From: an uncultured Ruthenibacterium sp.
Lineage (GTDB): Bacteria; Bacillota; Clostridia; Oscillospirales; Ruminococcaceae
DNA: 64,000 nucleotides
Assembly (NCBI GenBank): GCA_944386555.1
Contig: CALXBN010000045.1
Coordinates: 1 to 64,000, forward strand
Direction: 5' to 3'
Made by a program: the position numbers and the translations under genes. Shown one piece after another: positions 38,214 through 56,975 of this stretch. A model generated the notes under the pieces. The model did not search any database. It worked only from the letters and a program-made list of their open reading frames with translations, and was not told where the DNA came from. Positions within the stretch are counted from its first letter, which is position 1; each line of letters starts with the position of its first letter.

Positions 38214-38663
38214 TCAGCCAGGCCGGTGTTCCAGGCGGCGGAACAGGCCGCGCGGCAGCGACAGCACCGCCAGGATCCCCAGCGCGATGACTACGGCGAT
38301 TTTCAGCGTCTCCACGCCTTTGGCCAGGCAGGCGTCATTGTCACCCATGATAAAATAATACACCGTATAATAGATGCCCGCCCCGGGTACCAGGGGGAAA
38401 ATGCCCGCCGTAATGTAGACCACGGAAGGGCACCGGCACACCACCGACAGGATGCGGGTGAGCAGGGCCAGCGCCAGGGCCCCGAAAAATGAGCCCAGCA
38501 CCACCGACGCCCCCAGCTGCACCGACAGCCAGTACACGCCCCAACCGGCCATACCCGTGGCGCCGCAGGCCACATACTGGCGCTTGGGCGCATGGAACAG
38601 GATGGAGAAGGCAAGCGTGGCCACAAAGGACACAGTGCATTGGATCAGGAACTGCACGATCAC
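38214..38663 (-). CDS. ThrE_2 subunit of a split threonine/serine exporter-like protein
   Basis: The 149-residue membrane protein has about four spans (LIQCTVSFVATLAFSILFHAP, GWGVYWLSVQLGASVV, SVVYITAGIFPLVPGAGIYYTVYYFI, LKIAVVIALGILAVL). The PLVPGAGIYYT motif is diagnostic of the ThrE_2 family. It starts at a GTG overlapping the stop of the preceding ThrE half (GTGA). The two halves together equal one full-length ThrE exporter. Substrate probably amino acids, unproven. Confidence 0.85.
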   Translation of the reverse strand: MIVQFLIQCTVSFVATLAFSILFHAPKRQYVACGATGMAGWGVYWLSVQLGASVVLGSFFGALALALLTRILSVVCRCPSVVYITAGIFPLVPGAGIYYTVYYFIMGDNDACLAKGVETLKIAVVIALGILAVLSLPRGLFRRLEHRPG

Positions 38664-39478
38664 ACCATCACCCCCGGAATCCAGCTGCTGACAGTGAGCA
38701 CGAAGCCCACGCCGCAGGCGATGGCCGCCCCCACCAGCACGGCGTCCACCGCGCGGATCATGCCCGAAAGATAATCGCCTCCGGCGGCATCCCGGATACC
38801 AGTGGTGAGGGCAATGCCGGGCACCAGGGGGATGATGCCGCCGATGATGATGGCGTCCAGGCTGCAGGCCACGCCCAGCGCGGTGAGGGCCTGGGCGCAC
38901 AACAGGCTGACCAAAGCTACCAGCCCCGCACACAGCAGGTTGGCCACGAATTTACCCACCTCGCTGCGCTCCAGGGCAATGCGCGCGGGCTCCAGCGCCA
39001 GGCCTGCGCAGAACGCAGCCCCTGCGTCCACCGGCGTTCCGCCGAACAGATAGGCAAAGGCCGCCGTGCCCACGGCACAGGCCAGCAGGCGCACCAGGGC
39101 AGGCTTCTGCGGCATGGCGCGGATTGCGTCCAGCCGGCGGAAAGCTTCCTCCAGCGGCACGGCGCCCGCGGCGATCTCACGGCTGAGCTCATTGACCGCC
39201 ATGATGCGCCCCATGTGCGTGGATGCCTGGGGCAAAAAGCGCAGGGTCGTGCCCAGCTGGCCGCCGCCGTCCACCGAAACGAACAGCCCGTTGGTCAGCA
39301 CATAGGCATGAAAATGTTCTTCCCCGTAGGCCCGGGCAATGCGTTCCATCGTGTCCTGCACGCGGAATATCTCGCCGCCGTTCTCCAGCAAAGTCTGCCC
39401 CGCGCACAGCGCCAGGCGCAGAACGGCCGCCGGGCGCGCATCCCCGGCCGGGGATGCGCCCATGCCGCCCGCGGTCAC
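38660..39478 (-). CDS. ThrE subunit of a split threonine/serine exporter-like protein
   Basis: The 272-residue protein has the cytosolic ThrE domain (LLENGGEIFRVQDTMERIARAYG, VSVDGGG) and about five spans ending in IIGGIIPLVPGIALTTGIRD, the family signature. The start is taken as GTG 39478, overlapping the GNAT stop as GTGA with GGGAGGA close upstream; ATG 39463 is an alternative. Translationally coupled to both neighbours. Confidence 0.87.
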   Translation of the reverse strand: MTAGGMGASPAGDARPAAVLRLALCAGQTLLENGGEIFRVQDTMERIARAYGEEHFHAYVLTNGLFVSVDGGGQLGTTLRFLPQASTHMGRIMAVNELSREIAAGAVPLEEAFRRLDAIRAMPQKPALVRLLACAVGTAAFAYLFGGTPVDAGAAFCAGLALEPARIALERSEVGKFVANLLCAGLVALVSLLCAQALTALGVACSLDAIIIGGIIPLVPGIALTTGIRDAAGGDYLSGMIRAVDAVLVGAAIACGVGFVLTVSSWIPGVMV

Positions 39479-40269
39479 AGTTCCTCCCGCAGGCACTGGC
39501 GCCAGCCCGGAGGCACCAGGCTTTTGAACGCACAGTACACCGGCGCCTCCTGCCCCGCAAAGCCTGCCCTGCCGAACAGGCGCAGGGCATCGGCATCATC
39601 GGGGTCGCAGTCCAGGAAGATATCCGCGTAGTTCTGCTGTTCGGCCCGGGCCCATGCCAGGGCGGCCAGCAGCGCCGCTGCACCGCAGCCGATGCGGCGG
39701 CTGCCCTCGGCCGTATACAGCAGCTGGATGCAGAATGCGTCCGCATAGCCCAGCCCCACGCACAGGGACACCGGTTGCCCGTCCTGCAGGGCCACAAAGG
39801 CCCGGGCGCCCCGGGCCAGCTGGCGGTTCAGCACTTTCAACACATAGTCCTGCCCGCCGGCGTAGGCCGTCGGCAGCGCCGCGGCAGCACCTGCCAGGGG
39901 CGCCGACAGCATTTGGACAGGACACCGGCGGGCCAGCAGCAGAGGCGAGACCTTGCCCTGCCAGTGCATGCGCACCGCCGGCCGGGTGCTGAGCACGTAG
40001 CCCGCTTTGATCAGCGCGCCCCGGGCCTGGGCCGGCGGTACGCTGTCGGCGGGAAACATGAACTTGGGCACACAGCGGGTGCCCGCATAGTAGGCTTCCA
40101 CCGCCTCGATGCTGGCCGGCGCTTCTTCCAGCTTTTTCAGCACCGCATAGTTGGATGCGCCTGAAGCCTGGTTTTCCTTATCCCGAAAAGCCCGCCAGGC
40201 AGGCGTCTCGGCATACTCCAGGTACTTTTTCGGCGCATGAATATCAAATTTCTCACTGGCTGTCAGCAT
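39475..40269 (-). CDS. GNAT-fold acetyltransferase family protein
   Basis: The 264-residue protein has a C-terminal GNAT domain (AFVALQDGQPVSLCVGLGY, CIQLLYTAEGSRRIGCGAAALLAALAWARA, DIFLDCDPDDADALRLFGRAGF) and an N-terminal part that may be a degenerate second GNAT. It is not recognisable as the LegH acetyltransferase. ATG 40269 follows AAGGAAGG. It is separated by 105 bases from the LegF gene, so it and the ThrE pair may be read on or have their own promoter. Substrate unknown. Confidence 0.7.
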   Translation of the reverse strand: MLTASEKFDIHAPKKYLEYAETPAWRAFRDKENQASGASNYAVLKKLEEAPASIEAVEAYYAGTRCVPKFMFPADSVPPAQARGALIKAGYVLSTRPAVRMHWQGKVSPLLLARRCPVQMLSAPLAGAAAALPTAYAGGQDYVLKVLNRQLARGARAFVALQDGQPVSLCVGLGYADAFCIQLLYTAEGSRRIGCGAAALLAALAWARAEQQNYADIFLDCDPDDADALRLFGRAGFAGQEAPVYCAFKSLVPPGWRQCLREEL

Positions 40270-40374
40270 TGCGTCTGTATTCCTTCCTTCTCTCACAAAC
40301 CTTTCCGCGGGCTGCGGCCGTGCGGGTTTTCCGCAAACGCCGCTTCGCAGGCGTACTGCGCGGGGCGCGGGCAC

Positions 40375-41136
40375 TCAGCGGCGCACGGCTGCGCGCACCT
40401 GGCCGAAAGCCGGGTCGGCAGCGTACAGATGGCGGGCGCTGGCCTCCATCAGCAGATAGACCTCCCCGGAGTCGATGTCGATGATGCCCGTGTCGAACAT
40501 CTGATACATGCCGCAGGTGCCGTCCCACAGGAACCCCGTCTGATTTTCCAGCAAAAAGCTGCGCTTGAACACATAGATCGAGGCGTTCAGGTCAAACACC
40601 GGCGGGGTCTGCTGGCGGGCGGTGAAGTGGTGGTCGATCACCCGCCGGGCATAGCCGTCCACCAGCTGTGCCTGGTTCATATAGGGCGTGCGCCGGGCCG
40701 GGCACACGCTGAACACCACATCGCACTCCGGCTGGGCCAGCGCCTGGGCCCAGGCGCCGCTGACATCCTGCACCCGCCGCAAAGGGCTGGTGATGTCCAG
40801 GTCGATCAAATGGCCGTACATGCGGCCGGTGCGGGCCTCCATCTCCCGCAGGCTGTGCTGGAACACCCGCATTTTGGGCACGATATCGCCGCACAGCTCT
40901 TCGGGGCGGCGCACCACCGTTACCTCCGGATACTTGGCTGTCACCGCGTCAATCAGCAGCTGGGAATCGGTGTTCAGGCAGAGATCCACGTGCAGCTCCG
41001 GGTGCTGGCCGATAAACAGCTCGGCTGCGGCCAGGCTGTAGTGAGACAGCGGCAGGCCGTCGAAGATTTTCAGGTTTTTGTTCTTGAACCCCTTGCTGCC
41101 GGCCCGGCCGCAAATGGTAATCAACACGTTTTCCAT
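40375..41136 (-). CDS. legF: CMP-nonulosonate cytidylyltransferase (LegF/NeuA-like)
   Basis: The 253-residue enzyme activates the nonulosonic acid with CTP. The N terminus has the mononucleotide-binding motif ICGRAGSKGFKNKNL (usually ARGGSKG; here GRAGSKG), followed by PLSHYSLAAAELF, PEVTVVRRPEELCGD, LIDLDITSPLRRVQDV (metal site) and NASIYVFKRSFLL. Length fits CMP-sialate/legionaminate synthetases. The start abuts the stop of the acyltransferase gene. Being in a LegBCGIX cluster, its substrate is probably legionaminic acid or a derivative. Confidence 0.88.
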   Translation of the reverse strand: MENVLITICGRAGSKGFKNKNLKIFDGLPLSHYSLAAAELFIGQHPELHVDLCLNTDSQLLIDAVTAKYPEVTVVRRPEELCGDIVPKMRVFQHSLREMEARTGRMYGHLIDLDITSPLRRVQDVSGAWAQALAQPECDVVFSVCPARRTPYMNQAQLVDGYARRVIDHHFTARQQTPPVFDLNASIYVFKRSFLLENQTGFLWDGTCGMYQMFDTGIIDIDSGEVYLLMEASARHLYAADPAFGQVRAAVRR

Positions 41137-42180
41137 TCAAAGTTGCTCCTCTCTTTGCCGGTGCACCCGGCCGCGCACCGTAGCTATCAGATGATCGCTG
41201 CACACCTTCAGCGCCACACCGAACCCCAGGCTGGCCGCCAGCGTGACCGCCAGGAACAGGCTGCCGCGCCAAATGTAGAACGGGCCGGGGATATGAGCGG
41301 CCAGCTCGTTCAGCAGTATATGGTGCACAAGAATCACTGCGAAAGAATAACGCGCCAGCCATGTGACAGCTCGGCACAGCGGCCCATAGCGCCGGATAAT
41401 CGGGCCCAAAGCCCGCAGCACAACCAGCAGGCACACACCGGTGAGCGTGTACGGCAGGGGCCCAGGCAAATGCAACGGCACCAAAAACATCACCGCAAAC
41501 CCCATGCCGGCAGCCACCACAGCAGGCCAGCGCCGGAAAACCGGCCAGCGCTCCAGGCAAAAGCCCAGCAGGAAGGTGGTAATGCAGACGACCAGATTGC
41601 GGTTGCGCGAAATTTGAAGCGGATACCAAAACAGCAGCGCTATATATGCCGCAACGGCGAGTGCCATCGTAAGCAGCGGATGTTTGCGAAAGCACCAGCA
41701 TAATACAGGGAACAGCAGATACAGCAGCACGATGGCCCCAAAGAACCACTCGCCCACCAGCCCATAGCCGGTAACCCGGTAAGCCAAGTAGCTATCCATA
41801 CCTATCAGCGTCAGCAACATCTTGGCCGGATGGCCGCCCCACAGCAAATTGCCCGATTTACATACCCGCATAAAGTAGGCAGCAAGCCATGCGATATAAA
41901 AAATCGGAAATAAGCTGAGCCACCGCTTTTTGAAAAAAGCCCACCAGTTTTTGCAACGGCTGTCGTTGCGCCACAGCACAGCGCCGGACAGGACCAGGAA
42001 CATGGCTACAGCCGCCAGAGACATCTCGCCATTGGCGTAATAAAGCCCATAGTTGATGTAGCCATCTTCGCCGCGAGCCTGCAGGGCCAGGCTGTAATGG
42101 CCCAGCACCACCAGCAGCGTAGCCACTACGCGCACCAAGTCCAGGCCCACGTCCCTCTCTTTTTTTACAGATGCTCCCAT
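41137..42180 (-). CDS. Acyltransferase 3 family membrane O-acyltransferase
   Basis: The 347-residue protein has ten predicted spans. It opens with DLVRVVATLLVVLGHYSL (the acyltransferase-3 His), has FFKKRWLSLFPIFYIAW (basic RxxR-like stretch) and GLVGEWFFGAIVLLYLLFPVLCW, and closes with YSFAVILVHHILL. It would O-acetylate a sugar at the membrane, most simply the nonulosonic acid or the glycan of this cluster. It lies one base after the dehydrogenase stop and directly before legF. Confidence 0.87.
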   Translation of the reverse strand: MGASVKKERDVGLDLVRVVATLLVVLGHYSLALQARGEDGYINYGLYYANGEMSLAAVAMFLVLSGAVLWRNDSRCKNWWAFFKKRWLSLFPIFYIAWLAAYFMRVCKSGNLLWGGHPAKMLLTLIGMDSYLAYRVTGYGLVGEWFFGAIVLLYLLFPVLCWCFRKHPLLTMALAVAAYIALLFWYPLQISRNRNLVVCITTFLLGFCLERWPVFRRWPAVVAAGMGFAVMFLVPLHLPGPLPYTLTGVCLLVVLRALGPIIRRYGPLCRAVTWLARYSFAVILVHHILLNELAAHIPGPFYIWRGSLFLAVTLAASLGFGVALKVCSDHLIATVRGRVHRQREEQL

Positions 42181-42181
42181 T

Positions 42182-43117
42182 TCACATCTCCCCCAGTGTC
42201 AGCTTCAGTACGGTCAGGGCCTGTTCCGGGGGGTTCAGGCTCTCCGCAGCGGCGTCGTCCAGGGCGTAATGCAGGAAGTAGTCCATCTCCCGCTCGTAAC
42301 GGCGATTGACGGGTTCTTCGTAATGCTCCTGCGTTCCGTCGGGCAGGGTGAGGATGCCCGCGCCGAAATCGGCGGTGAGGGTGCCGTCGGCGCAGAACAG
42401 CTCGATGGTGCGCCGGTAGGTGCGTCCGAAGTAGTCCAGATGCACTTCACCCAGCATTCTGGGCCAGCGGGCAATGTACACTGACAAATCGTCGGAATCA
42501 AGCTCCAAATCGCTGTAAGTGCCCTTGAAATTGCAGATCTGCGCAGGCGCGCCGAACAGCTCCACCAGATAGTCCCACTCGTGGATCAGGTCAATGGTGA
42601 CGCCGCCGCCCATGTCCCGATGGGCCGAGTAGACCGTGCGGTAGTCCACACCGGGGCGCCATTCCGGCAGATAAGACGAACAGATCACACGGGCGCAATA
42701 GGGCCGCAGTCCGTCCCGGCCCAGGCGCTGTTTCAGGGCCAGCATGGTCCCGCACCAGCGCATGGGCGCGGCCACATAGGCTTTCTGGCCGGGGGCCAGG
42801 CAGTCGGCCAGGGCGTAGGCCGTGTGCTCAAAAAGGGGTTTTTCAATGAACAAGGCCCCCACCCTGCCCCGCAAAGCGCACAAGGTCTCAAAATGCAGGC
42901 TGGTGGGGTTGGTGATAAACGCCGCATCCCAAACCTCCCCGTCGGGCAGGGTGCGGAACTGGCCATCCAGCAGGGCTGCCGTCTGGGCCGGCAGGGGCCT
43001 GCCGGAGGAACGCAGCGCCCACACCTTCAGCGGCAGGCCCATGGCCCCGGCGGCGGCCCGCAGGTTTTTCAAATGGCGGGTACCTATGGAACCCAGACCG
43101 GTGAACAGCACTTTCAC
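42182..43117 (-). CDS. Gfo/Idh/MocA-family oxidoreductase
   Basis: The 311-residue protein has an N-terminal Rossmann fold (VLFTGLGSIGTRHLKNL) and the family catalytic-site motif GALFIEKPLFEH (EKP). GGGVTIDLIHEWDYLVELFG supplies the substrate-site Asp/His. It uses NAD(P) to oxidise or reduce a sugar or sugar-nucleotide. It overlaps the SUFU gene by 4 bases. In this context it could modify a nonulosonate precursor; not proven. Confidence 0.85.
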   Translation of the reverse strand: MKVLFTGLGSIGTRHLKNLRAAAGAMGLPLKVWALRSSGRPLPAQTAALLDGQFRTLPDGEVWDAAFITNPTSLHFETLCALRGRVGALFIEKPLFEHTAYALADCLAPGQKAYVAAPMRWCGTMLALKQRLGRDGLRPYCARVICSSYLPEWRPGVDYRTVYSAHRDMGGGVTIDLIHEWDYLVELFGAPAQICNFKGTYSDLELDSDDLSVYIARWPRMLGEVHLDYFGRTYRRTIELFCADGTLTADFGAGILTLPDGTQEHYEEPVNRRYEREMDYFLHYALDDAAAESLNPPEQALTVLKLTLGEM

Positions 43118-43887
43118 GGCCGCGCCTCCTTTCGGGGTGAGGTGTTCGGGCGGGCGGGATCGGCCAGGAAGCCCCGGCCGCCCTCCTGCAGGCGCAGGTC
43201 TGCCTCCAGGGTCTCGGCGCCCCGGCGCAGTTTCACATCCATCTCTTCGGGATATACAGGCACGGCCAGGTACAGCATCACCTGGCCGCCGTCCCGGGTG
43301 GGCACGGGCATCACGCAGCGCGGGCCATTGCCCTCATCGGGCAGGAACAGCACCACGCCGGTAAATCCCGTGCCGGCAATGGGCCGGGCCGGGTTCCCGT
43401 TGGGAACCGAGTGGCCCGCCCCCAGCCAGGTACGGTAGAGATGGGGCATCCGCGCCAGGGCCTTCAGAATGCGGATAGGCCAATACACTTCCTCCGGCCC
43501 GTCGGAAGAAAGGCCCTGCAGGGGAAAACTGCCGGGCAGGTACATCATCACCTCGGCCCTGCGCAGATAATCGTACTGCCGGGCATGCTCCAGGTTTTCC
43601 AGCGTCATCGGCAGGCTGGACATGCCGGTGGTATACAGCACCCAGTAGGGTTCGGCCGGAATGGGCGCCATAGCGTACACATCCACATGGATATCCGGGC
43701 TGGCCAGTTCGTGCCAAACGGTGGTTTCGCGGCCGGGGAAAGCCTGTTCCATCCAGGCGGTGATCTCCGGGCCGTAGTCCCGGGCGCCGGCGGTGTCAAC
43801 GGGCACCGGGTCCGCATGGTGCAGCACCGGGCCATCGGCGGGATATGCGGCCTCGGCATCCCGCCGCTTTTTCAGAAAGTCAAACAT
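43114..43887 (-). CDS. Suppressor-of-fused (SUFU) domain protein
   Basis: The 257-residue protein matches bacterial SUFU domains: TTVWHELASPDIHVDVYAM, then PIPAEPYWVLYTTGMSSLPMTL, AEVMMYLPGSF, WPIRILKALARMPHLYRTWLGAGHSVPNG and a closing TGVVLF and YLAVPVYPEEM. SUFU domains in bacteria occur mostly as immunity proteins against polymorphic toxins or next to secretion genes. ATG 43887 follows CAGGAGGACG and overlaps the upstream stop by 8 bases; it overlaps the next gene by 4 bases. So it is firmly embedded in the glycan operon, which is unusual. Its partner is not evident. Confidence 0.85.
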   Translation of the reverse strand: MFDFLKKRRDAEAAYPADGPVLHHADPVPVDTAGARDYGPEITAWMEQAFPGRETTVWHELASPDIHVDVYAMAPIPAEPYWVLYTTGMSSLPMTLENLEHARQYDYLRRAEVMMYLPGSFPLQGLSSDGPEEVYWPIRILKALARMPHLYRTWLGAGHSVPNGNPARPIAGTGFTGVVLFLPDEGNGPRCVMPVPTRDGGQVMLYLAVPVYPEEMDVKLRRGAETLEADLRLQEGGRGFLADPARPNTSPRKEARP

Positions 43888-44881
43888 GGGCGTCCTCCTG
43901 CCGGGCAGCCGCCTCGATGCGGTCGATGAGTGCCAGGGCCTGGCGGTCTTTTTCAAAGTTCCAGCGGGGCTGCTCTTTGCCCTCCAGCACGGCGAAGAAA
44001 TTGGCCAGCTCGTCCACATAGGCGTTTTCCACAATATTATCCGAATAGCGGCTGTCGTGCTCGAAGGTGTCGTAGGTATTCACCGCCACCTTGTCCCCGG
44101 CGGCCTTGTCGAAGCGGTAGAGGGCCCTGGGGTTGCCCTCCCAGAACAGGTGCAGCCCCTCGCCGAAGCACTCGAAATTGCGCACGGCCTTGGGGCACAC
44201 CACATCCACCGCCAGCAGGCCCTTGGTGCCGTTTTCATGGCGCAGGGTGACAAAGTAGCTGTCCGGGTAGCCGATCTCCAAACCGCTGAGCTTATCGGCC
44301 CGGGCAAACACGTCCGACACCGGGCCGAAGGCATCCAGCAGCCAGGGCAGGTCGATGCCGAAGATCTCCCGCACGCCGCCGGTACGCGCATCTCCCACAA
44401 AGAAGTTCTTATAATTTTCCCAGGGGTGCCAGTCGGGCAGATACTGGCCGATGTGATAAATGTAATTGACGGGCTTTGGGAAAGCCGCCACCTGCGCCTT
44501 GATGTACTGGGTCTCGGCCCTGTACAGCATGGTGGAGGAGAGGAACAGCGGCAACCCATTTTCCGCAGCTTTGGCCGTAAGGGCGTCATAGCCGTCCGGC
44601 ACCAGGTTCAGCTCGGTGAATACCGGCACGCCGGCGTCCAGCAGCCGGCCGATGATCGCCGCGTGCGTCAGCGGCGCGGTACACACCAGCGCGGCGTCGT
44701 ACCGGCCCGCAGCCAGGGCTTCGTCCAGGCCTGCCCAGCCCTGCACACCCAGGGCGGCCGCCTCGGCCCGGCGGCTTTCGGCCAGGTCTACGCCGCAGAG
44801 GGCCGCATCCGGCCGCAGCTGCCGGACCAGCCGGGCCCGGCGCTTGCCCATGCTGCCCAAACCAACAATCAACAGTTTCAT
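43880..44881 (-). CDS. Gfo/Idh/MocA-family oxidoreductase (second copy)
   Basis: The 333-residue protein begins LLIVGLGSMGKRRARLVRQL (Rossmann). At the usual EKP position it has FTELNLVPDG, so the Lys-Pro pair that holds the catalytic Lys is missing. The C-terminal half keeps the sandwich fold: VREIFGIDLPWLLDAFGP and SYFVTLRHENGTKGLL. It may bind cofactor but act by a different route, or be a non-catalytic partner. It diverges strongly from the other copy at 42182. ATG 44881 follows AAGGGGAG. Confidence 0.82.
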   Translation of the reverse strand: MKLLIVGLGSMGKRRARLVRQLRPDAALCGVDLAESRRAEAAALGVQGWAGLDEALAAGRYDAALVCTAPLTHAAIIGRLLDAGVPVFTELNLVPDGYDALTAKAAENGLPLFLSSTMLYRAETQYIKAQVAAFPKPVNYIYHIGQYLPDWHPWENYKNFFVGDARTGGVREIFGIDLPWLLDAFGPVSDVFARADKLSGLEIGYPDSYFVTLRHENGTKGLLAVDVVCPKAVRNFECFGEGLHLFWEGNPRALYRFDKAAGDKVAVNTYDTFEHDSRYSDNIVENAYVDELANFFAVLEGKEQPRWNFEKDRQALALIDRIEAAARQEDAHV

Positions 44882-44907
44882 CGTTGCACTCCCCTTTTTC
44901 TTTCCCC

Positions 44908-46026
44908 TCAGCCTTGCGCCGGGGGAATGAATTCCAGCTGGTCGGTGTCCGTCCAGCCCAGGATACTGTCTTTCTTGACAAGGGTCTGCCCGCCGCAAGT
45001 GCATACCACACTCACCCGGTCTCCGCCCTTCAAAGCCAGGCGCAGGCTGGTGTAATCTCCCGCCAGGCGTGCGCCCGACGGCCCCTGCCGCACCCACTTT
45101 GCAGGGACCCAGGCCGTCTGGCCGGCGGCCTGATGGCGGCACAGCAGGGCGTCCCGCTCCTCGTCCCGCTCCAGCACGTCCACATCCAGGTCCGGCCAGA
45201 TCCAGGCGATGCTTTCCTCCTGCGCGGCCTTCCGGCCCTTCCGCACCACCGCGCGCCCCAGGCCGTCCACGCAGGAATAACGGCGATAGGCCCCTTCCCA
45301 CAGCTCGGTGCCGTTCAGCTGGCCGCCCTCTTTCACACACAGCCCACCGTCGATGGACAGGATATTTTTTTCGGCATCGCAGAAAGGCGCAAAGCCCAGC
45401 ACGCCCCGGCGCCGGGCCGTGTAATTACTGACGGGGAAATGGCCTACCACCAGCAGCTTTTCGCTTTTTTCGGCCCTGTCCAGGTAGCCGCGCACCGTCA
45501 GGGCTTCTTCCCAGGGCTGGCTCTCCAGAGGCCCGGGGCACAGCCCTGCGTGGACGAAGCGGTAATCTTCGGTCTCCAGGATGTCCGGCAGAGCCCGCAG
45601 AAAGGCCGTCTCCGCCGGATAAGCCGCCTGCAGGCGGCGCACTGCGGCGGGAACGTCAGCCAGAACCTGCTGCCGGGCCAGCCCCTGGGCCGCGGCCAGC
45701 TGCCACAAAAAGCCGTCGGCCTCCGTCTGCCGGGCCAGCAGAGCCGGCAGGTCCGGGTCCGCCGGGTCCAGCAGGGCGGTGTCACAGTTTCCCCGCAGCA
45801 CGTACACCCGGTCCTCCCGCATCAGATCCATGGCCATGCGCAGCGCGCCCAGGCTGTCGGGGCCTTTTTCCAGCAGGTCCCCCACCAGCACCAGGCCGTC
45901 CTTGCCGGGGCGATAGTCCAGCTTTTCCAGCAGCCTGCGCAATAAATCCGGCCGGCCGTGCACATCGCTGACGGCCAGCACCCGCCGGCGGCGGCTGAAT
46001 TCCCCCCGGGCCACATTGCACTTCAT
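44908..46026 (-). CDS. PPP-like metallophosphoesterase
   Basis: The 372-residue protein has the metal-centre motifs of Ser/Thr-type phosphatases: VSDVHGRPD, GLVLVGDLLEKGPDS and VLRGNCDTAL, and later VHAGLCPG, VVGHFPVSN and SIDGGL. The motif GNCD replaces the usual GNHE/D. The C-terminal 100 residues form a separate beta-rich part. Substrate unknown. Gap of 26 bases to the dehydrogenase and 49 to the previous gene, so co-transcribed. Confidence 0.8.
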   Translation of the reverse strand: MKCNVARGEFSRRRRVLAVSDVHGRPDLLRRLLEKLDYRPGKDGLVLVGDLLEKGPDSLGALRMAMDLMREDRVYVLRGNCDTALLDPADPDLPALLARQTEADGFLWQLAAAQGLARQQVLADVPAAVRRLQAAYPAETAFLRALPDILETEDYRFVHAGLCPGPLESQPWEEALTVRGYLDRAEKSEKLLVVGHFPVSNYTARRRGVLGFAPFCDAEKNILSIDGGLCVKEGGQLNGTELWEGAYRRYSCVDGLGRAVVRKGRKAAQEESIAWIWPDLDVDVLERDEERDALLCRHQAAGQTAWVPAKWVRQGPSGARLAGDYTSLRLALKGGDRVSVVCTCGGQTLVKKDSILGWTDTDQLEFIPPAQG

Positions 46027-46074: not shown

Positions 46075-46692
46075 TCAGCCCGCCAGTTCAGGCGCGATCT
46101 GCGCGCCCAGGGCCGTCAGCGCACTGTAAAACGTTTCATAACCGGTGATGTCGTACACGATCTCCCCCTCCAGGTCCGTATAGCGGCAGCCGCGCTCGGG
46201 CGTAGCGTACACGCACAGGGTACTGCCGTCCCGCAGGGTGAGGAAGATGCGGAAAGTCTGCCCGTAGCCGGCGTAAGGCAGGCTGTCCAGCAGGCCCGCC
46301 CTGCAGGAGGCGCCCGACAGCAGGGCCACCACCTGGCCGGCCTGGGTGTCGGTGAGGGTCAGGATCTTTTCCGCCTTGCCCGGCACCCGGGTGCGCACTT
46401 CCACAGCAGTTACCGCCCCGGCATCGGCCACGGGCACGGGCCGGTAGGCCCACAGGCACAGCCCGGCCGCCACGGCCAGCGCCGCGCCCACGGCCGCAGC
46501 CTGGCGCCAGCGCCGCTGTACCAGGCGCACTGCCAAAAAGGCTGCCAGCAGCGCCGCGAACAGCGCCAGCGCCAGCAGCGCCACCCGGGCCGCCTGGGTG
46601 AAATAAGGCGTATAAAAACCGGGGGCCTCCAGCTTCTGACGCTCCAGCACAGTGGCCACCGTACGGAACATGGCTTTCAAGTTTTCAACCAT
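46075..46692 (-). CDS. Membrane protein of unknown function
   Basis: The 205-residue protein has two membrane spans (residues about 35-58 and 66-85) and an extracytoplasmic C-terminal domain (VEVRTRVPGKAEKILTLTD...FRIFLTLRDGSTLCVYATPE) that is alpha/beta in character. No family recognised. ATG 46692 overlaps the legG stop by 8 bases, so it is translationally coupled. An earlier in-frame start lies inside legG and lacks a ribosome site. Confidence 0.65.
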   Translation of the reverse strand: MVENLKAMFRTVATVLERQKLEAPGFYTPYFTQAARVALLALALFAALLAAFLAVRLVQRRWRQAAAVGAALAVAAGLCLWAYRPVPVADAGAVTAVEVRTRVPGKAEKILTLTDTQAGQVVALLSGASCRAGLLDSLPYAGYGQTFRIFLTLRDGSTLCVYATPERGCRYTDLEGEIVYDITGYETFYSALTALGAQIAPELAG

Positions 46693-50052: not shown

Positions 50053-51216
50053 TTACAGGCTCAGCAGCACGTCCACCACCCGCTGGGCGTCCGCCCGGGT
50101 GAGGTTGGTGGAACAGGGGATGTTCACAATGCGCTCCCAGTAGTGGCGGGCAAGGTCCGTGCCGTAGGCTTCGTTTTTGGGATAATCGGCCTGATCCTGA
50201 ATCAGGCCCCAGATGGGCCGGGTCTGGATGCCCTGGGCCTTCAGGGCGGCGATGATCTCGTCCCGCTTCATGGGGTGGGTATCGTACACATACAGGCTGT
50301 AGAACCAATGGTTGGAGCGGGTGCCCGGCCGGAAGGGCTGGATACCGTAGTTATGCTTGCCGTGCAGCTGTTCGTAATAGAAGTTGTAGGTGTCGATCTT
50401 GTGCCGGATGAAGTCCTCGATCTGCTCCAGCTGGGCCAGGCCCAAGGCAGCCTGGAGGTTGGTCATACGGTAATTATAGCCCACCTCGTCGTGCTTGTAG
50501 TTCAGCTCGTCGCTTTTGGCCTGCGTGGACAGGTGCTTTGCGTGGGCCAGCCAGTCGGGGTGGTTGGAGACGACCATTCCGCCGGAGCCGGTGGTGATGA
50601 GCTTGTTGCCGTTGAAGCTGTACACACCGATATCGCCGATGGTGCCCGCGAACTTGCCGGCGTAGCGTCCCTCGGTGTAGCAGGTGCCCAGGGCCTCGGT
50701 AGCGTCCTCCACCACAACCAGGTTCCACTTTTGGGCGATGTCCATGATGCCTTCCATGGAGGCCATGTTGCCGAACACATGCACCACCACCAGGGCTTTG
50801 ATGTGGGCGCCGGTGGCCTTGTTACGGCACTGGCCGTCCCGCAGCTCGGCGTGGGCCTGCAGGTATTCCTCCACCAGGGTGGGGCACATGCACAGGCTGT
50901 CGCCGCAGCCGATGAAAACAGGCTGGGCGCCCACGTAGCGGATGGGGTTTACTGCCGCGATAAATGTGAGCGTAGGCGCCAGCACCTCGTCGCCCGGGCC
51001 CACCCCGGCGGCCAGCAGGGCCAGGTGCAGCCCGGCGGTGCCGCTGGTGCAGGCCACGGCGGCGGGCATGTGCACATAGTCGGCGATGGCCTGCTCGAAC
51101 TTGGGCACCAGGCTGCCGCCGGTGGAGACCCACTCACTGACCACTGCGTCGTTCACATATTTGCGCTCGTTGCCCGCGAAATTGGGCACCGACAGGGGAA
51201 TGAAATGCTGTTCCAT
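50053..51216 (-). CDS. legC: PLP-dependent aminotransferase (LegC-like)
   Basis: The 387-residue DegT/DnrJ/EryC1-family enzyme transfers an amino group to the 4-keto sugar nucleotide made by LegB. It has CTSGTAGLHLALLAAGVGPGDEV, VVEDATEALGT, and the PLP Lys205 in FNGNKLITTGSGGM, then EVGYNYRMTNLQAALGLAQLE. ATG 51216 is used (GAGGT spacing good); a TTG two codons upstream is possible. It follows a small membrane gene by 49 bases. Confidence 0.93.
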   Translation of the reverse strand: MEQHFIPLSVPNFAGNERKYVNDAVVSEWVSTGGSLVPKFEQAIADYVHMPAAVACTSGTAGLHLALLAAGVGPGDEVLAPTLTFIAAVNPIRYVGAQPVFIGCGDSLCMCPTLVEEYLQAHAELRDGQCRNKATGAHIKALVVVHVFGNMASMEGIMDIAQKWNLVVVEDATEALGTCYTEGRYAGKFAGTIGDIGVYSFNGNKLITTGSGGMVVSNHPDWLAHAKHLSTQAKSDELNYKHDEVGYNYRMTNLQAALGLAQLEQIEDFIRHKIDTYNFYYEQLHGKHNYGIQPFRPGTRSNHWFYSLYVYDTHPMKRDEIIAALKAQGIQTRPIWGLIQDQADYPKNEAYGTDLARHYWERIVNIPCSTNLTRADAQRVVDVLLSL

Positions 51217-51265
51217 GTTCAATTACCTCTTTTTGATGGATTGACGCCCCGGCGGGGCGGTGGTG

Positions 51266-51931
51266 TCAGGATCGTTTTCTGTGCGCCTCCAGCAGCCAGG
51301 CCGCGGCGCCGGCCAGCACTTTCACGGCCGCCGCGGCCAGGGCGGGCACCGCCGCAAAGGCCAGCAGCCAGGGCCGCGTGGGCGTGCACCAGGACGCCAG
51401 GGACCGGGGCGCGTTCAGCACGATGTCACCCATGGAAAAGGTGAGGCCGGTATAGATGCCCGGGTCCAGCCGGAGGGCGTACACCCTGCCCCGGGGCAGC
51501 GTGAAGGTGTAGGTACCGTCGTCGTTGCGGTGGGCCCAGATGCGGTAGCTCACGTCAAAGTCTTCCATGTCCGGCCGGGGCTGGTAGAACAGGCAGAACT
51601 CACCGGGGTCCATGTTGAGGAACTGGGCCGTCACCGTGACGCTGCGCACATAGGCGGGCGGGTCGGCCAGCGTCATGCGGGGGTCCGGGCTTTGGGAGGT
51701 GTAAGTGCCGTCTTCGTTGGCCGCAAGGTCGGTCAGGGCAAAGTCCGCAGGGCTCAGGGTGCTCACCTGCACGTTGCCCAGGGCCCGCTGGACGCGGTCC
51801 TCTGCAAAACCGTACAGGCAGGCCAGCACACTGACGGCAAAAAAAGCCGCATAGCAGAAGGCGATCAGCCGGCGGTCGCTGCGCAGCAGCCATCCCGGCG
51901 CAGCGCGCAGGCGTTGCAGCAGCTGTTTCAT
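51266..51931 (-). CDS. Membrane-anchored protein of unknown function
   Basis: The 221-residue protein has an N-terminal span (22-42), an extracytoplasmic beta-rich domain (TLSPADFALTDLAANEDGTYTS...FCLFYQPRPDMEDFDVSYRIWAHR...RVYALRLDPGIYTGL) and a C-terminal span (190-213). The architecture resembles small partners of GT-C glycan proteins. Its ATG overlaps the upstream stop (ATGA), so it is coupled to the GT-C-like protein. No family recognised. Confidence 0.65.
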   Translation of the reverse strand: MKQLLQRLRAAPGWLLRSDRRLIAFCYAAFFAVSVLACLYGFAEDRVQRALGNVQVSTLSPADFALTDLAANEDGTYTSQSPDPRMTLADPPAYVRSVTVTAQFLNMDPGEFCLFYQPRPDMEDFDVSYRIWAHRNDDGTYTFTLPRGRVYALRLDPGIYTGLTFSMGDIVLNAPRSLASWCTPTRPWLLAFAAVPALAAAAVKVLAGAAAWLLEAHRKRS

Positions 51932-54132
51932 TCCCGCAGCCCCCCTTCTTCAATGGGCGAAAAGTGCATATCCGCGCCCGTGCCTTCCACCCGGTACAGC
52001 GCTGCGCCGCTGGCCAAGCCATCGTCAAACAGATGGCCGTAGGCCTGCAGGAAGGCATCGCTGACACTCTCGATCAGGATGGCCGTGCAGCCGGTGGCCT
52101 CCAGGTACCGGCACAGCACATCGGCGGTAAAGGGCCGGCCCAGGAAATAAGCCGCCTGTTCCCCGCTCAGGTCCTTGGGAATGCCATAGGTGCCCGGACG
52201 GTTGTAATAAAGGCCTGTTTCCGCGTCATAGGCATAACCGCCGGTTTGCTCGTCGTAATAGGAAAGGTCCGTACCGTCGTCGGCCCGCACAATATCGCCG
52301 CCTCCGAAGCTGTAGTCCAGATGGATCTCGGGGAACAGATCATAATAGGCCTTGAACCAGGCGCCGCCGTCGTCGCCCGTCGCCACAAAAAACACCCGTT
52401 CCCCTTCTTCCAGGGCGGCCTTCACCCGGTCGTGGGCGGCAATGTCCCGCCGGCGGCCGGCGTAGTAGCTGTCGGGGAAATCCACCACCGACAGCTGCGG
52501 CTGTACAAACGTAGCCGTGCGCCAGCAGCTGAAGGCCGTCAGCGCCGCCAGCGCCAGGGCACCGGCCTGCTTCCAGGCGGTAAGGGGGCCGGGCTGCCCG
52601 GGGCCGGCACCGAGCGGCGCCCTGGAGACGGACTCTTGGGCCCGGCGCGCACAAACGCCGCGGCAGGACGCCGCCAGGATGGCCGCCGCCGTCAGCAGCC
52701 AGCCCAGGTAATAAGGATAAATATACCGGTTGTAGTCGGTCATCTCCGAACTCTCGGGGAACACATAGACATAGGTAAAGCCGATGAAGATATAGTAGGC
52801 GGCGAAGCCCAGGGTACTCAGCAATGCAAACCAGCCGATGCCCGCCCGCCGGCCCCGGCCTGCTGCCAGAAAAGCCAGGCCCAGCAGCGCCAGCACCAGC
52901 AGCGTGATGATGAGGCCCGACCCGTTGAGATACCTGCCGATGCCCTCTTCGGCAAACAGCCCCCCCACCCGGAAAGAGGACAGGCTGGTGGAGTAATAAT
53001 ACTGCCACATCTTGCCCATCACCCTGCCAAAGCGCTCGGTGCGGCCGATGCCCACCAGCTCGCACAAACCGGTGAACAGCATCTGGAACATGCTCATCTG
53101 CTGGTCTCCGCCCAGGTCTGTGGCGCTGGCGCCGGTACCCAGCAGCGGCGTGCGGTACAGCACCCAGGCCACATACGGCACAACGGCCGACGCGGCCAGC
53201 GCCGCGCACCAGCCCAGGCGCGCGGGGATGTGCCCGATACGCCCGGCCAGCGGCACGGAATCCTTTTTCTGAACAAACAGCAGGTCAAAGCACACCAGCG
53301 CCGCGGCGATGAGGGCCAGCGCAAAACTGGTCTCTTTGGTGATGCAGCAGGCCGCCACCGCCAGGCATACCGCCGCCAGCAGCGCCGGGCTTTTGTGCCG
53401 GTTGGTAAAATACAGCGCCAGGGGAGCGCCAAACAGCAGCCCCATGGGCACATCGGCATAAGCGCTGATATAAATGGTCTCCACATAAATATTGCGCATG
53501 TAAACGGTGCACAGGTAGGGCAGCAGCACCGCAAAACCCGCCCCCAGCACCGCCAGATGCCAATGGCGGCGCTCCAGCACAGCCAGGGCCGCCGCGTAAA
53601 TGGCAAACATCAGGATATCGTACGCGGCATATACTTTCCAGGGCACAAAGGCCGCCCCCAGGAACTGGAACAGCTGGGCCAGCATCACAAGGCCCGGGGC
53701 GAAGGTGATGCTGCGCAGCTCGCCGGGTTCCAGCAGGTACAGCCGCCCGGTTTCCTTTACCACTTTGGGCGCGATGCCCCAGAAGGAGAATTCGTCCCAC
53801 TCCATAAAAATGGGCTGGCGAACAGCGAACAGGACGATGATCACCAGGCTTGCCCCCAGGAAAACCATCACCGAAGGGGTCAAGACTTTCCGCTTTGTAA
53901 AGGTTTTGCGTTTTACAGCGCACCATACCGCAGCTGCAGCCGCGCCGGCAAACCATAAAAGCCCGCCCAGGAACAGCCGGTCCAGGCAGGCGAACACGCT
54001 GAGCCACAGCATGGAACCGCACAGCACCGCCAAAGGCGCGGCGCCGGCGGGCAGCCGGGTCCGTCCGGCCAGGAAGCCGGCCATCGCCAGCAGCCCGGCA
54101 AAGGTGAGCATTGTTTCCAAAAAAGCCGTCAA
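51928..54132 (-). CDS. GT-C-like multi-span glycan membrane protein
   Basis: The 734-residue protein has about 13 membrane spans in the first 500 residues and a soluble C-terminal domain (about 530-734). The first outer loop has RQPIFMEWDEFSFWGI, an Asp-Glu pair placed like the catalytic site of lipid-linked-sugar glycosyltransferases (GT-C/ArnT-like). It likely transfers or polymerises a lipid-linked sugar on the outer face. The start is a TTG at 54132, which is poorly supported; ATG 54111 is an alternative. Precise family uncertain. Confidence 0.65.
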   Translation of the reverse strand: MTAFLETMLTFAGLLAMAGFLAGRTRLPAGAAPLAVLCGSMLWLSVFACLDRLFLGGLLWFAGAAAAAVWCAVKRKTFTKRKVLTPSVMVFLGASLVIIVLFAVRQPIFMEWDEFSFWGIAPKVVKETGRLYLLEPGELRSITFAPGLVMLAQLFQFLGAAFVPWKVYAAYDILMFAIYAAALAVLERRHWHLAVLGAGFAVLLPYLCTVYMRNIYVETIYISAYADVPMGLLFGAPLALYFTNRHKSPALLAAVCLAVAACCITKETSFALALIAAALVCFDLLFVQKKDSVPLAGRIGHIPARLGWCAALAASAVVPYVAWVLYRTPLLGTGASATDLGGDQQMSMFQMLFTGLCELVGIGRTERFGRVMGKMWQYYYSTSLSSFRVGGLFAEEGIGRYLNGSGLIITLLVLALLGLAFLAAGRGRRAGIGWFALLSTLGFAAYYIFIGFTYVYVFPESSEMTDYNRYIYPYYLGWLLTAAAILAASCRGVCARRAQESVSRAPLGAGPGQPGPLTAWKQAGALALAALTAFSCWRTATFVQPQLSVVDFPDSYYAGRRRDIAAHDRVKAALEEGERVFFVATGDDGGAWFKAYYDLFPEIHLDYSFGGGDIVRADDGTDLSYYDEQTGGYAYDAETGLYYNRPGTYGIPKDLSGEQAAYFLGRPFTADVLCRYLEATGCTAILIESVSDAFLQAYGHLFDDGLASGAALYRVEGTGADMHFSPIEEGGLRE

Positions 54133-54198
54133 ATGTGAAAACCTGCCTTTGCGTAAGGTTTTGCCGCAGAAGAGCCCCCGCTCCTCCTCACAGAGCCG

Positions 54199-55818
54199 TT
54201 ACCCCTCGATGCCGATATAGTAGTTCTGGAACAAAAACACCGCGCAGATCACCCCGTAGACAAATGCCAGGTGAGCCATACGCCAGGCGGGAGGCGTTTT
54301 TTGCGGCGGGCCCGGGCGCAGGTTCTGCAGTGCCATGGTGCGGCCCAGCGCCATGGCCGCCAGCACCAGCACCGCGAAGAACGCCGCCAGCAGGTAACGC
54401 GTCTGCACGCCGTTGATCTCCGGCAGCTGGTAGGGCGTGCTGGTAAGATACATGCCCGTGTAGGTGCCCCCGTACAGCAGCAGCGCCGTCAATGCCATAA
54501 CAACGCCGGTGCGCAGGGTTTCCCGCGCACCCTCCAAGGCCGACAGCCCCGCACTGAACAGCAGCACCAGGGGTGAAAAGTAGCTGACAAAAGACACGGT
54601 CATGTCCATCCAGCCGAAGCCGCCCATGGAGAACAGGTTCCACTTGTCCCGGTACATGGAGTAGCACAGCACCGCCGCATAACGGGGGATGTTCTGCAGA
54701 ATGAACACCAGCTGCGCCAGGGGCTGGATGGCCGGGTCCGGGTAGAGGGCGGTGATCGTGCTGAACCGGGCACTGTAAAGGCTTAAAACTTCATACAGCA
54801 CCAGCGCCGCCGCCAGACAGCCCGCAGCCGTCAGCGCGGTATGCTGCCAGGGGCGCAGGGCGCGCCGGCCCAGGCGCAAGGGCTTTGGGGGCGCCGGGCG
54901 CAGCCACAGCAGCGGCAGCAGGCCCACGGCCGTCACCTTGATGGCGAAGGCAGCGGCAAACCCGGCGGCCAGGGCGGCCGTGCGTTTGGGGGTGGCAACC
55001 GGGGAAAGGCATGCGCCCACAACCAGCCAGATGGCCCCCAGGAACAGCCCGTCGGAAGAACAGCTGGCCGCCATGAACAGGGACACCGGGCACAGCATCA
55101 GCGCCGCCAAAATGGGCAGAAAACGCCCCGCCATGTAAAGCGCCATGCCGCAAAGCGCCGCATAACACAGCAAGTTGGCCAGCCGGGCCAGATACATACA
55201 TGCCAGCGCATCGGCCCCCGCCAGCCGCCCGGCCGCCACCCCCAGCGCCTGGGGAATATAGCCCAGGAACTGCTGCACCAGCGTGCTGGCCGGGGCGGCG
55301 GCACCGCTGGCCTTCAGCTGCTCGTACCGGGTAAAGCCGTCGGCCATGGTGGCCAGCCCCGGCTCAATCAGCTCCCGGTTGTAAAAGCCGGGAAACGCCT
55401 CGCACAGGGCGTCCACATCAGCGGGAAAATCCTCGCCGGCCTCGAAGGTGAAATGGCCGCTGCCCAGGCTGTAGGCCCGCAGGAAGTGGCCGGTTTCGTC
55501 CGGGGCCTGCAGGGGCGGGTTGGCCGCGGCGAAGCACACCCCGGCAATGACCACCAGGCACATCACCTTCAGCCACAGCTTCTGGGGCAGGAATTTGGCG
55601 CACAGGAATACCGCACCGTACACACCGCTAAAAGCCAGGCACACCGCCGCCGTGGCCGCAGCGGGGCTGAGCATGGAGAAGCCATAGGCCACCCGCCAGT
55701 AATACACCAGCCCCACACCGCAGGCCAGCACCAGCATATAGCCCAGCGCCCAGCGCACGCCGCTGCAGCCCCACAGGGCCAAAAGCGGATTCACTTGTCC
55801 CTTCTGCGGGCTTTCCAT
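54199..55818 (-). CDS. DUF2142-like membrane protein
   Basis: The 539-residue protein has about 12 spans and the DUF2142 hallmark ANPPLQAPDETGHFLRAYSL in the first outer loop, where the acidic pair sits as in GT-C enzymes. It ends in a short span. DUF2142 proteins occur in polysaccharide clusters and are thought to be glycosyltransferases. A 63-base gap follows legB; the RBS is weak (AAGGGGACAGG). Confidence 0.82.
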   Translation of the reverse strand: MESPQKGQVNPLLALWGCSGVRWALGYMLVLACGVGLVYYWRVAYGFSMLSPAAATAAVCLAFSGVYGAVFLCAKFLPQKLWLKVMCLVVIAGVCFAAANPPLQAPDETGHFLRAYSLGSGHFTFEAGEDFPADVDALCEAFPGFYNRELIEPGLATMADGFTRYEQLKASGAAAPASTLVQQFLGYIPQALGVAAGRLAGADALACMYLARLANLLCYAALCGMALYMAGRFLPILAALMLCPVSLFMAASCSSDGLFLGAIWLVVGACLSPVATPKRTAALAAGFAAAFAIKVTAVGLLPLLWLRPAPPKPLRLGRRALRPWQHTALTAAGCLAAALVLYEVLSLYSARFSTITALYPDPAIQPLAQLVFILQNIPRYAAVLCYSMYRDKWNLFSMGGFGWMDMTVSFVSYFSPLVLLFSAGLSALEGARETLRTGVVMALTALLLYGGTYTGMYLTSTPYQLPEINGVQTRYLLAAFFAVLVLAAMALGRTMALQNLRPGPPQKTPPAWRMAHLAFVYGVICAVFLFQNYYIGIEG

Positions 55819-55881
55819 GGCCTGTCCCCTTTTCCCTCCGCCCGGAGAGCGAAGTCCATTTTGTAGAATTTATTGCAAATA

Positions 55882-56865
55882 TTACAAACTGTAAACTCCC
55901 ACACGGAATGCTTCCATATGGGTCCTGATCCAGGCGATGGTCTCGGCCAAGCCCTGTTCAAACGTATAAGCCGGAGCCCAGCCGGTCAGCCGGCGCAGGC
56001 GGGTGGAATCGCCCAGCAGACGGTTCACCTCACTCTTCTCCGGCCGCAGGCGCTGTTCCTCACACACCACGCGGGCGGCGGGATTGATCTGGCGGATCAG
56101 CTCGGCAGCCAAGTCCCCGATGGAGATCTCCTGTCCGGTGGCGATGTTCAGCTCCTGGCCGACAGCATCTTCGCACCCGGCAATGGCCATGAAGCCGGCC
56201 GCCGTATCCTTTACATAGTTGAAATCCCGGGTGGGTGTCAGGCTGCCCAGCTTGATCTCTTCGGCCCCGCTCAGCAGCTGGGTGATGATGGTGGGAATAA
56301 CGGCGCGCCCGCTCTGGCGGGGGCCATAAGTGTTGAACGGCCGCACAATGGTGACCGGCAGGCCGAAGCTGCGGTAAAAGCTTTCAGCCAGGCGGTCGGC
56401 GCCGATCTTGGTGGCGGAATAAGGGCTTTGGCCCTGGAAGGGATGCTTTTCATCAATGGGCACGTACTGGGCCGTGCCGTACACCTCGCTGGTGGAGGTG
56501 ACCAGCAGACGCCGGGTGCCCACATCCCGGGCGGCGTTCAGGACATTCAGGGTTCCTTTGATATTGGTGTCCACATAGCTGTCCGGGCTGTGGTAGCTGA
56601 AGGGGATGGCGATCAGCGCCGCCAAATGGTACACGATATCCTGGCCCTTCATCGCCGTGCGCACGCCGTTGGGGTCTCGGATATCGCCCATGAACACCTC
56701 GATCTCGCCTTTGATCTCCGGGGGCAGGGTGTCCAGCCAGCCCCATTTGCCGAAGGAATTATAGTAGCAGAAGGCTTTTACCTTCTCTCCTTTTTTCACC
56801 AGTTCCTCCGTCAGGTGGCTGCCGATGAAGCCGTCGGCGCCGGTAACCATCACTGCATTGGCCAT
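55882..56865 (-). CDS. legB: NAD-dependent 4,6-dehydratase (LegB)
   Basis: The 327-residue short-chain dehydratase opens with MVTGADGFIGSHLTEELVK (NAD site), has LAALIAIPFSYHSPDSYVDTN, LLVTSTSEVYG, and the catalytic YSATK (Tyr149, Lys153), followed by FNTYGPRQSGRAVIPTII. It makes the 4-keto-6-deoxy sugar that LegC aminates. The AIPFSYHSPxSYVDTN segment and length are typical of LegB rather than of RmlB or PseB. First gene of the minus-strand run. Confidence 0.93.
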   Translation of the reverse strand: MANAVMVTGADGFIGSHLTEELVKKGEKVKAFCYYNSFGKWGWLDTLPPEIKGEIEVFMGDIRDPNGVRTAMKGQDIVYHLAALIAIPFSYHSPDSYVDTNIKGTLNVLNAARDVGTRRLLVTSTSEVYGTAQYVPIDEKHPFQGQSPYSATKIGADRLAESFYRSFGLPVTIVRPFNTYGPRQSGRAVIPTIITQLLSGAEEIKLGSLTPTRDFNYVKDTAAGFMAIAGCEDAVGQELNIATGQEISIGDLAAELIRQINPAARVVCEEQRLRPEKSEVNRLLGDSTRLRRLTGWAPAYTFEQGLAETIAWIRTHMEAFRVGVYSL

Positions 56866-56946
56866 GTCCCATCTCTCCTTTTTGCATCCGGTTCGCCCCC
56901 GGCTGCAGGGCCGGCAGGCACAAAATTCCGCACATAATCAGTATAT

Positions 56947-56975
56947 AGTATAATACAATTCGCCCTCCTTCGCAA
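56947..56975 (-). promoter_or_regulatory. Promoter of the legionaminate gene run
   Basis: On the minus strand TTGCGA (56970-56975), 17 bases, TATACT (56947-56952), 82 bases ahead of legB. Confidence 0.6.

Follow-up and report, generated by a model that had tools for sequence, protein, structure and literature searches.

The CMP-legionaminic acid pathway of Campylobacter, which comprises LegB, LegC, LegH, LegG, LegI and LegF together with PtmE/LegX, is the natural point of comparison for the locus considered here. In Plesiomonas, a NeuD homologue has been named LegH (PMC4481668), and in Legionella NeuD is assigned the LegH step while the dehydratase is encoded outside the locus (PMC3766260), according to the available parts of these two reports. 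A NeuD-family protein for the acetyl step is also what we propose below, and the one Legionella enzyme encoded elsewhere can be compared with the split pathway described here (PMC3766260, available text). However, in both organisms the available text places NeuD in the cluster, whereas here the candidate PglD-type genes are unlinked to it, belong to a separate clade of shorter proteins and in one case are fused to a kinase.

The window, meaning the whole 64,000-nucleotide stretch of DNA from an uncultured Ruthenibacterium sp. that was analysed, carries homologues of LegB, LegC, LegX, LegI, LegG and LegF in one run on the minus strand, from the LegB start at 56865 to the stop codon of the second ThrE gene at 38214. 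NCBIfam and Pfam matches bear out the first-pass annotation, which had read these six genes in one direction with no recognisable LegH. Compared with Campylobacter, the run is without LegH and adds a DUF2142 protein, a GT-C-like protein, two Gfo/Idh/MocA-type proteins and a ThrE pair; its other non-Leg genes encode SUFU, metallophosphoesterase, Acyl_transf_3 and GNAT proteins. In order of reading, the features are:

55882..56865, minus strand: LegB, NAD-dependent 4,6-dehydratase (TIGR04180, 508 bits; cut-off 475)
54199..55818, minus strand: DUF2142 membrane protein (PF09913, 120.7 bits), adjoining LegB and conserved in window-type operons
51928..54132, minus strand: membrane protein with a GT-C fold by the fold test, predicted glycosyltransferase
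51266..51931, minus strand: small partner of the GT-C protein, no family over cut-off, after the GT-C gene in relatives too; read by us as a membrane anchor
50053..51222, minus strand: LegC, PLP aminotransferase (TIGR04181, 459 bits; cut-off 420)
48978..50024, minus strand: LegX/PtmE-type sugar-1-phosphate nucleotidyltransferase with a CBS domain (PF00483 and PF00571)
47948..48943, minus strand: LegI, NeuB-type synthase (TIGR03569, NeuB family, 490 bits; cut-off 400)
46685..47914, minus strand: LegG, NeuC-type hydrolysing 2-epimerase (TIGR03568, NeuC family, 367 bits; cut-off 236)
46075..46692, minus strand: small protein matching no family, retained by some members of the genus
44908..46026, minus strand: metallophosphoesterase (PF00149), with a relative (40%) in the G035 operon
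43880..44881, minus strand: first Gfo/Idh/MocA oxidoreductase (PF01408), conserved with the operon
43114..43887, minus strand: SUFU-domain protein (PF05076, 122.8 bits), present in part of the relatives
42182..43117, minus strand: second Gfo/Idh/MocA-type oxidoreductase (PF01408, 22.9 bits, just below the cut-off of 24), conserved with the operon
41137..42180, minus strand: Acyl_transf_3 membrane acyltransferase (PF01757, 83.3 bits)
40375..41136, minus strand: LegF, CMP-sugar synthetase (PF02348, 26.3 bits; cut-off 22.6), conserved in position
39475..40269, minus strand: two-domain GNAT, in our judgement not the conserved LegH
38660..39478, minus strand: ThrE-type exporter subunit 1 (PF06738, 203.6 bits)
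38214..38663, minus strand: ThrE-type exporter subunit 2 (PF12821, 124.5 bits)
38160..38191, minus strand: intrinsic terminator, a 14-pair stem with 10 G-C pairs and a T tail

The run contains what marks a CMP-legionaminic acid cluster, namely the LegB and LegC equivalogs, NeuB-type and NeuC-type enzymes and a CMP-sugar synthetase (PF02348 just over its cut-off). The closest solved proteins to LegX by sequence are mannose-1-phosphate guanylyltransferases. LegF is named tentatively, from weak family scores (with the PseF model it reaches 51 bits, below the cut-off of 206) and its conserved place in the operon. The two oxidoreductases in the run are the reason that 8-epilegionaminic acid was considered as the product: the elaABC genes of Acinetobacter, for 8-epilegionaminic acid, likewise place an oxidoreductase-type gene beside Leg genes, a likeness drawn from the description in the available part of that report (PMC9676051). 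A PtmF-like identity would suit the pair of Gfo/Idh/MocA-type proteins just as well.

From LegB to LegF the intergenic spacing is −8 to +66 nt, and 105 nt separate LegF from the GNAT gene, in agreement with the overlaps and short gaps first described. The strong terminator described at the end of the run is likewise there; 14 such stems were detected, a number to be read against the 15.9 that shuffled sequences yield, but none of the others comes near this one in length. The claim of a single promoter fares less well. The candidate at 56975-56947 (minus strand) matches the consensus at 9/12 positions, eight sites this good occur in the region against 3.7 in shuffled sequence, and three further promoter-type sites on the minus strand lie inside the run.

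The Leg island continues with a divergent gene set on the plus strand, up to 63322, an extension that the first-pass annotation passed over, as it did the lineage-wide extent of the LegH gap:

58415..59854, plus strand: MBOAT acyltransferase, DltB-like (PF03062, 116 bits), upstream of LegB in many relatives
59867..60817, plus strand: conserved partner of the MBOAT protein, presumably SGNH-like (DUF1574, PF07611, 26.7 bits, below the cut-off of 29.1)
60814..62106, plus strand: surface carbohydrate biosynthesis protein, predicted glycosyltransferase (TIGR04396, 240.9 bits; cut-off 125)
62201..63322, plus strand: WbuX-family N-acetyl sugar amidotransferase (TIGR03573, 341.7 bits; cut-off 203)

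An amidotransferase of the WbuX family is also found within or beside the Leg clusters of three other genomes (G432, G275 and G088).

The LegH gap belongs to the lineage and not to the strain. Neither Pfam searches of all 18 proteins nor tblastn revealed a NeuD/PglD-type protein in the window's run, and no acetyltransferase of this type occurs in any of the 23 window-type operons (the window plus 22 relatives). Its conservation across many genera speaks for a split pathway that functions. Such a protein does lie inside two differently arranged Leg clusters of the same family (G215 and G413), and it is in the cluster at 4/8 LegB loci from seven mostly Lachnospiraceae genomes. The seven derive from a contig scan with the fusion protein described below as query, in which, for 40 of the 80 loci listed, the genome was searched for LegB; nine of the 40 matched, and the seven matches over the cut-off supplied the LegB regions examined, two weak matches being left out. 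Among the differently arranged clusters, G292 holds a FemAB-type protein and L239 a formyltransferase.

A LegH hidden between the operon genes was sought by listing the unassigned operon-strand frames of the 22 relatives and reading the longer ones or searching them against Pfam. This gave a single acyltransferase-type gene, a NAT_N/GNAT_C protein between LegI and LegX in G018, the sole window-type operon of the 23 with another gene of this kind. The other frames include one for a hydrolase-like protein and one for a DUF1361 protein in G007, one for an ArsC-family protein in G189, and frames for large membrane proteins in G005, G067 and G189; the remainder are small and lay outside the family search. 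In G209, LegF is followed by a CarD-family protein. The NAT_N/GNAT_C family shows no tie to LegB, being present in 33/347 genomes (9/68 with LegB and 24/279 without it), and nothing in the window's genome matches it. Because of this absence, and because the G018 genome also holds a PglD-NahK fusion, the G018 gene left our odds unmoved.

Contig 9 of the window's genome carries two tandem genes for PglD-type N-acetyltransferases, the product of one being fused to a hexosamine-1-kinase of the NahK type. Both proteins, 171 and 540 aa long, match PF17836 (PglD_N) over its cut-off and Hexapep below its cut-off; with TIGR03570 they score 109 and 100 bits, under the cut-off of 160.8, and by profile they match solved left-handed beta-helix enzymes. 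The nearest of these are the Neisseria pilin-glycosylation protein 4m98 (E 3.6e-42, profile), the UDP-N-acetylbacillosamine N-acetyltransferase of C. jejuni and a perosamine N-acetyltransferase, which we take to be enzymes of 4-amino-sugar nucleotides. As in PglD of bacillosamine synthesis, PglD_N and the beta-helix are present and the catalytic histidine and the sugar-nucleotide pair of aspartates are kept. The available text of one report names Asp35, Asp36 and His125 in PglD (PMC8040287); the aligned positions are invariant in 22/22 sequences. The position of Ser13 is glycine in both contig-9 proteins, as in 4m98, and that of His15 is tyrosine or leucine in the clade alignment. In contrast to PglD/PglB, the contig-9 beta-helix is shorter, one of the two proteins is fused to NahK, and the neighbours read include no bacillosamine genes. 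The kinase part (residues 169-536) is NahK-type over its full length (4ocu, E 1.1e-102) and differs from this N-acetylhexosamine 1-kinase in the added N-terminal PglD-type domain. In a tree, the PglD-type clade stands apart from the in-cluster LegH proteins. A PglD-type gene is linked to the operon once, as a broken copy in G034, and the neighbours of the fusion in relatives point to no common pathway. A search of the open-access literature found nothing on the window-type operon or on the fusion.

These genes co-occur with LegB. Among 347 family genomes, PglD-type genes occur in 40/68 with LegB and 9/279 without it, and the fusion in 26/68 and 0/279; counted by genus, the figures are 16/29 against 6/97 for PglD-type genes and 10/29 against 0/97 for the fusion. 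It should be noted that the Fisher tests on co-occurrence ignore shared ancestry, that the limit of the PglD-type clade (E <= 1e-47) was set after a gap between 3.7e-48 and 3.3e-42 had been seen, and that the 347-genome search scored part of the first-look candidates. LegB genomes with no clade member number 28; all but G215 and G413 were searched again (21 + 5, all candidates being scored for the 21), and no clade gene turned up, while for the 279 LegB-less genomes the figures are those of the first search. There are 41 LegB genomes of at least 90% completeness, 12 of them without a PglD-type clade gene. Three of the 12 have another in-cluster acyltransferase (G215, G413 and G292) and nine are without a recognised LegH; among the nine, G209 is 100% complete with the whole operon visible, and the operons of G348, G398 and G430 are cut short by the end of the contig. 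The contig scan, diluted by plain NahK kinases, gave six fusion genomes among the matches listed, all six without a LegB match (their completeness being unstated) and five also without NeuB; one is Candidatus Onthovicinus, assigned to Oscillospiraceae by NCBI. The fusion therefore cannot be Leg-specific everywhere.

The reading that we favour, although we hold it only at even balance, is that the operon makes a CMP-activated sugar of the legionaminic acid type and that one or both contig-9 PglD-type enzymes supply the missing N-acetylation. It draws on features established from sequence: gene content and order, the absence of LegH from the operon, the two PglD-type genes and the co-occurrence. 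LegX would convert GlcNAc-1-phosphate and GTP to GDP-GlcNAc, LegB would carry out the 4,6-dehydration and LegC the 4-amination; an unlinked PglD-type enzyme would then replace LegH in 4-N-acetylation, LegG would hydrolyse and 2-epimerise the product, LegI would condense it with PEP and LegF would activate the sugar with CMP. The amidotransferase may convert an N-acetyl to an acetamidino group, and the GT-C and surface-carbohydrate proteins may place the sugar, or a glycan carrying it, at the surface. A bolder version, in which the PglD-NahK protein both makes GlcNAc-1-phosphate for LegX and performs the LegH acetylation, so that scavenged GlcNAc becomes a sialic-acid-like surface sugar, seems to us rather unlikely. 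The first-pass annotation had offered three explanations of the gap, and of these a LegH encoded elsewhere appears the best supported: the genome-wide search that it proposed did yield two tandem candidates, but neither is a clear LegH, their function is predicted from sequence, and the fusion also occurs in LegB-less genomes.

Those LegB-less fusion genomes, five of the six lacking NeuB as well, are also what one would expect if the contig-9 proteins belonged to a different pathway, for hexosamine salvage or for some other amino sugar, and LegH were a further acyltransferase of the genome that has escaped recognition. This is possible, if doubtful. The nine near-complete LegB genomes with neither the clade nor another recognised LegH fit it, and the unrelated acyltransferase-type genes inside the G292 (FemAB-type) and G018 (NAT_N/GNAT_C) clusters suggest that different enzymes may fill the step; against it, the fusion is found in no LegB-less genome of the 279 sampled in the family, the closest solved relatives of the contig-9 proteins presumably act on 4-amino-sugar nucleotides, and the NAT_N/GNAT_C family is neither present in the window's genome nor tied to LegB. 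It is improbable that the step goes without acylation, with LegG taking the free 4-amine and position 7 staying an amine or being acylated later, in this strain perhaps by the Acyl_transf_3 protein. Five operons (G002, G003, G008, G272 and G367) do have no unassigned frame of at least 60 aa between the first and last core genes, but LegG and LegI score over the cut-offs of the ordinary NeuC and NeuB families, and the N-acetyl-sugar amidotransferase that travels with the island would need N-acetyl groups. The Acyl_transf_3 protein has no relative over 60 bits in the 82 fetched loci (some of which are not operons), which counts against this reading too and led to its rejection as the lineage's LegH.

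More improbable still is a LegH role in this genus for the GNAT at 39475-40269. It directly follows LegF in the seven other members of the genus where the stretch is visible (G001-G004 and G007-G009), relatives with 27-29% identity follow LegF in G028 and G242, and PseH and WecD are examples of 4-amino-sugar acetyltransferases with a GNAT fold (PMC4363471, available text). In five relatives, however, LegF runs directly into the ThrE pair with no GNAT between, which makes this protein a poor candidate. In the proposed structure check the best fold matches are other GNATs, with the nucleotide-sugar enzyme WecD at rank 42; PseH is not among the fold matches listed, an absence that we do not count as evidence. 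The candidate was rejected on gene order and fold, which upholds the earlier statement that the GNAT does not match LegH and makes the suggestion that one of the GNATs substitutes for it unlikely.

Annotation of Leg clusters usually proceeds one gene at a time, and a cluster lacking LegH is readily taken for a defective or wrongly assigned one. The contig-9 PglD-type genes are two concrete candidates for the missing step, and the PglD-NahK domain fusion is common to the window's family and some Lachnospiraceae. If the proposal is confirmed, a group of Firmicutes would join the bacteria on whose surface a sialic-acid-like sugar may be displayed.

The legionaminic-acid-type (Leg) run that the first-pass annotation placed at 38214..56975 is present, but the island to which it belongs extends further, into a divergent set of genes:

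58415-63322, plus strand: MBOAT, SGNH-like, TIGR04396 surface carbohydrate and WbuX-family N-acetyl sugar amidotransferase genes

In the fetched LegB regions of many relatives, the first three of these are found upstream of LegB. The WbuX-family gene lies within or adjoining the Leg clusters of G432, G275 and G088, which makes an acetamidino form of the sugar plausible; formyltransferase genes (PF00551, PF02911) inside two other fetched Leg clusters (L239 11811-12725 and L243 14478-15389) hint at N-formyl forms. The window's sugar may be Leg, an acetamidino form or an 8-epimer. A SUFU-domain protein encoded between the two Gfo/Idh/MocA-type oxidoreductases (43114-43887, minus strand) is retained in some relatives (G002, G003, G008, G030, G067), and the ThrE-type exporter pair (38214-39478, minus strand) follows LegF in several genera, whether the GNAT is present or not. 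Outside the island, a purine riboswitch (RF00167, 46.7 bits; 21163-21265, plus strand) lies upstream of the gene at 21378.

The absence of LegH is common to the whole lineage. Window-type operons, defined by LegB adjoining DUF2142 and recovery of all eight core genes, were found in 23 genomes including that of the window; the core genes occupy one locus in 19, two loci in G030, G035 and G067, and a locus plus a second one in G189. A search of the fetched LegB regions gave no NeuD/PglD-type match inside the operon in any of the 23. In G002, G003, G008, G272 and G367, every operon-strand frame of at least 60 aa between the outermost core genes seen is assigned. In G018, one genome of the 23, LegI and LegX flank an NAT_N/GNAT_C acyltransferase-type gene (L062 4439-5284); this family is equally common with and without LegB, and a search for it in the window's genome gave no match.

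In published accounts, the Plesiomonas LegH is a NeuD homologue (PMC4481668), the Legionella role is assigned to NeuD, with the dehydratase outside the locus (PMC3766260), and the Clostridium butyricum LegH, the sole Leg component without a clear orthologue, was chosen by domain (PMC13317340). Among differently arranged Leg clusters of the window's family, a NeuD-type gene lies inside those of G215 and G413, and G292 has a FemAB/Acetyltransf_6-type gene where LegH would be expected (L304 7423-8502). No NeuD-type gene is present in the clusters of G432, G088 and G275, or in the stretches read of the split clusters of G024, G027, G048, G203 and G231; G052 has one weak match (36 bits), distant from its Leg genes. 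In seven mostly Lachnospiraceae genomes, four of eight LegB loci contain a NeuD-type gene (identified by search in L240, L243 and L244 and through Pfam in L241), and L243 has both oxidoreductases in common with the window type.

A search of the window's genome with the TIGR03570 profile gave six matches, the top two being adjoining genes on contig 9 that both miss its cut-off, although PglD_N is above cut-off in each. One encodes a 171-aa protein; the other, of 540 aa, has the same kind of N-terminal domain followed by a NahK-type kinase:

L007 10468-12090 (contig 9 of the window's genome): PglD-type acetyltransferase fused to NahK-type kinase

Their closest solved relatives are the Neisseria pilin-glycosylation protein 4m98, C. 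jejuni PglD and a perosamine N-acetyltransferase, which are enzymes of 4-amino-sugar nucleotides. NahK activity would yield GlcNAc-1-phosphate, the presumed substrate of LegX. Equivalents of PglD Asp35, Asp36 and His125, named in PMC8040287, are invariant in 22 of 22 aligned sequences, and that of Ser13 is Gly. Either of the two contig-9 proteins might act as LegH: some relatives, among them G018 and G030, carry the fusion alone, and G001, of the window's genus, carries a single PglD-type gene of the 171-aa protein's group and lacks the fusion.

There is evidence that these proteins accompany LegB. All 18 full-length fusions among 149 relatives are in LegB-bearing genomes. Across 347 family genomes, members of the PglD-type clade, whether fused or standing alone (defined by E at most 1e-47), occur in 40 of 68 with LegB against 9 of 279 without, a count that may be low, as LegB-free genomes had one search round and only part of their candidates scored; the fusion occurs in 26 of 68 against none of 279. 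By genus, with shared ancestry kept in, the figures are 16/29 against 6/97 for the clade (Fisher p 3e-8) and 10/29 against 0/97 for the fusion (p 1e-7). Against a role as LegH, the clade is missing from 12 of the 41 LegB genomes that are at least 90% complete. Three of these (G215, G413, G292) have their own enzyme inside the cluster; the others (G024, G027, G050, G084, G189, G209, G348, G398, G430) have no LegH that we recognise, and in G348, G398 and G430 contigs end inside the operon.

Also against it, all six fusion-bearing genomes identified among the matches listed in a scan of genome contigs (two Blautia, Lachnoclostridium sp. An169, two other Lachnospiraceae and Candidatus Onthovicinus; completeness unstated) have no LegB match, and five of them no NeuB match. 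The five fusions from Lachnospiraceae group together in the tree, nested within the family's fusions at an unsure position, which suggests that the fusion may have been transferred between families; the PglD-type clade as a whole branches apart from the LegH proteins encoded inside Leg clusters. The main alternative, in which the contig-9 proteins have another function and the true LegH has escaped recognition, is a real but lesser prospect. The simplest reading, to which we give roughly even chances, is that the organism would have a working Leg-type pathway in which an unlinked PglD-type enzyme serves as LegH.
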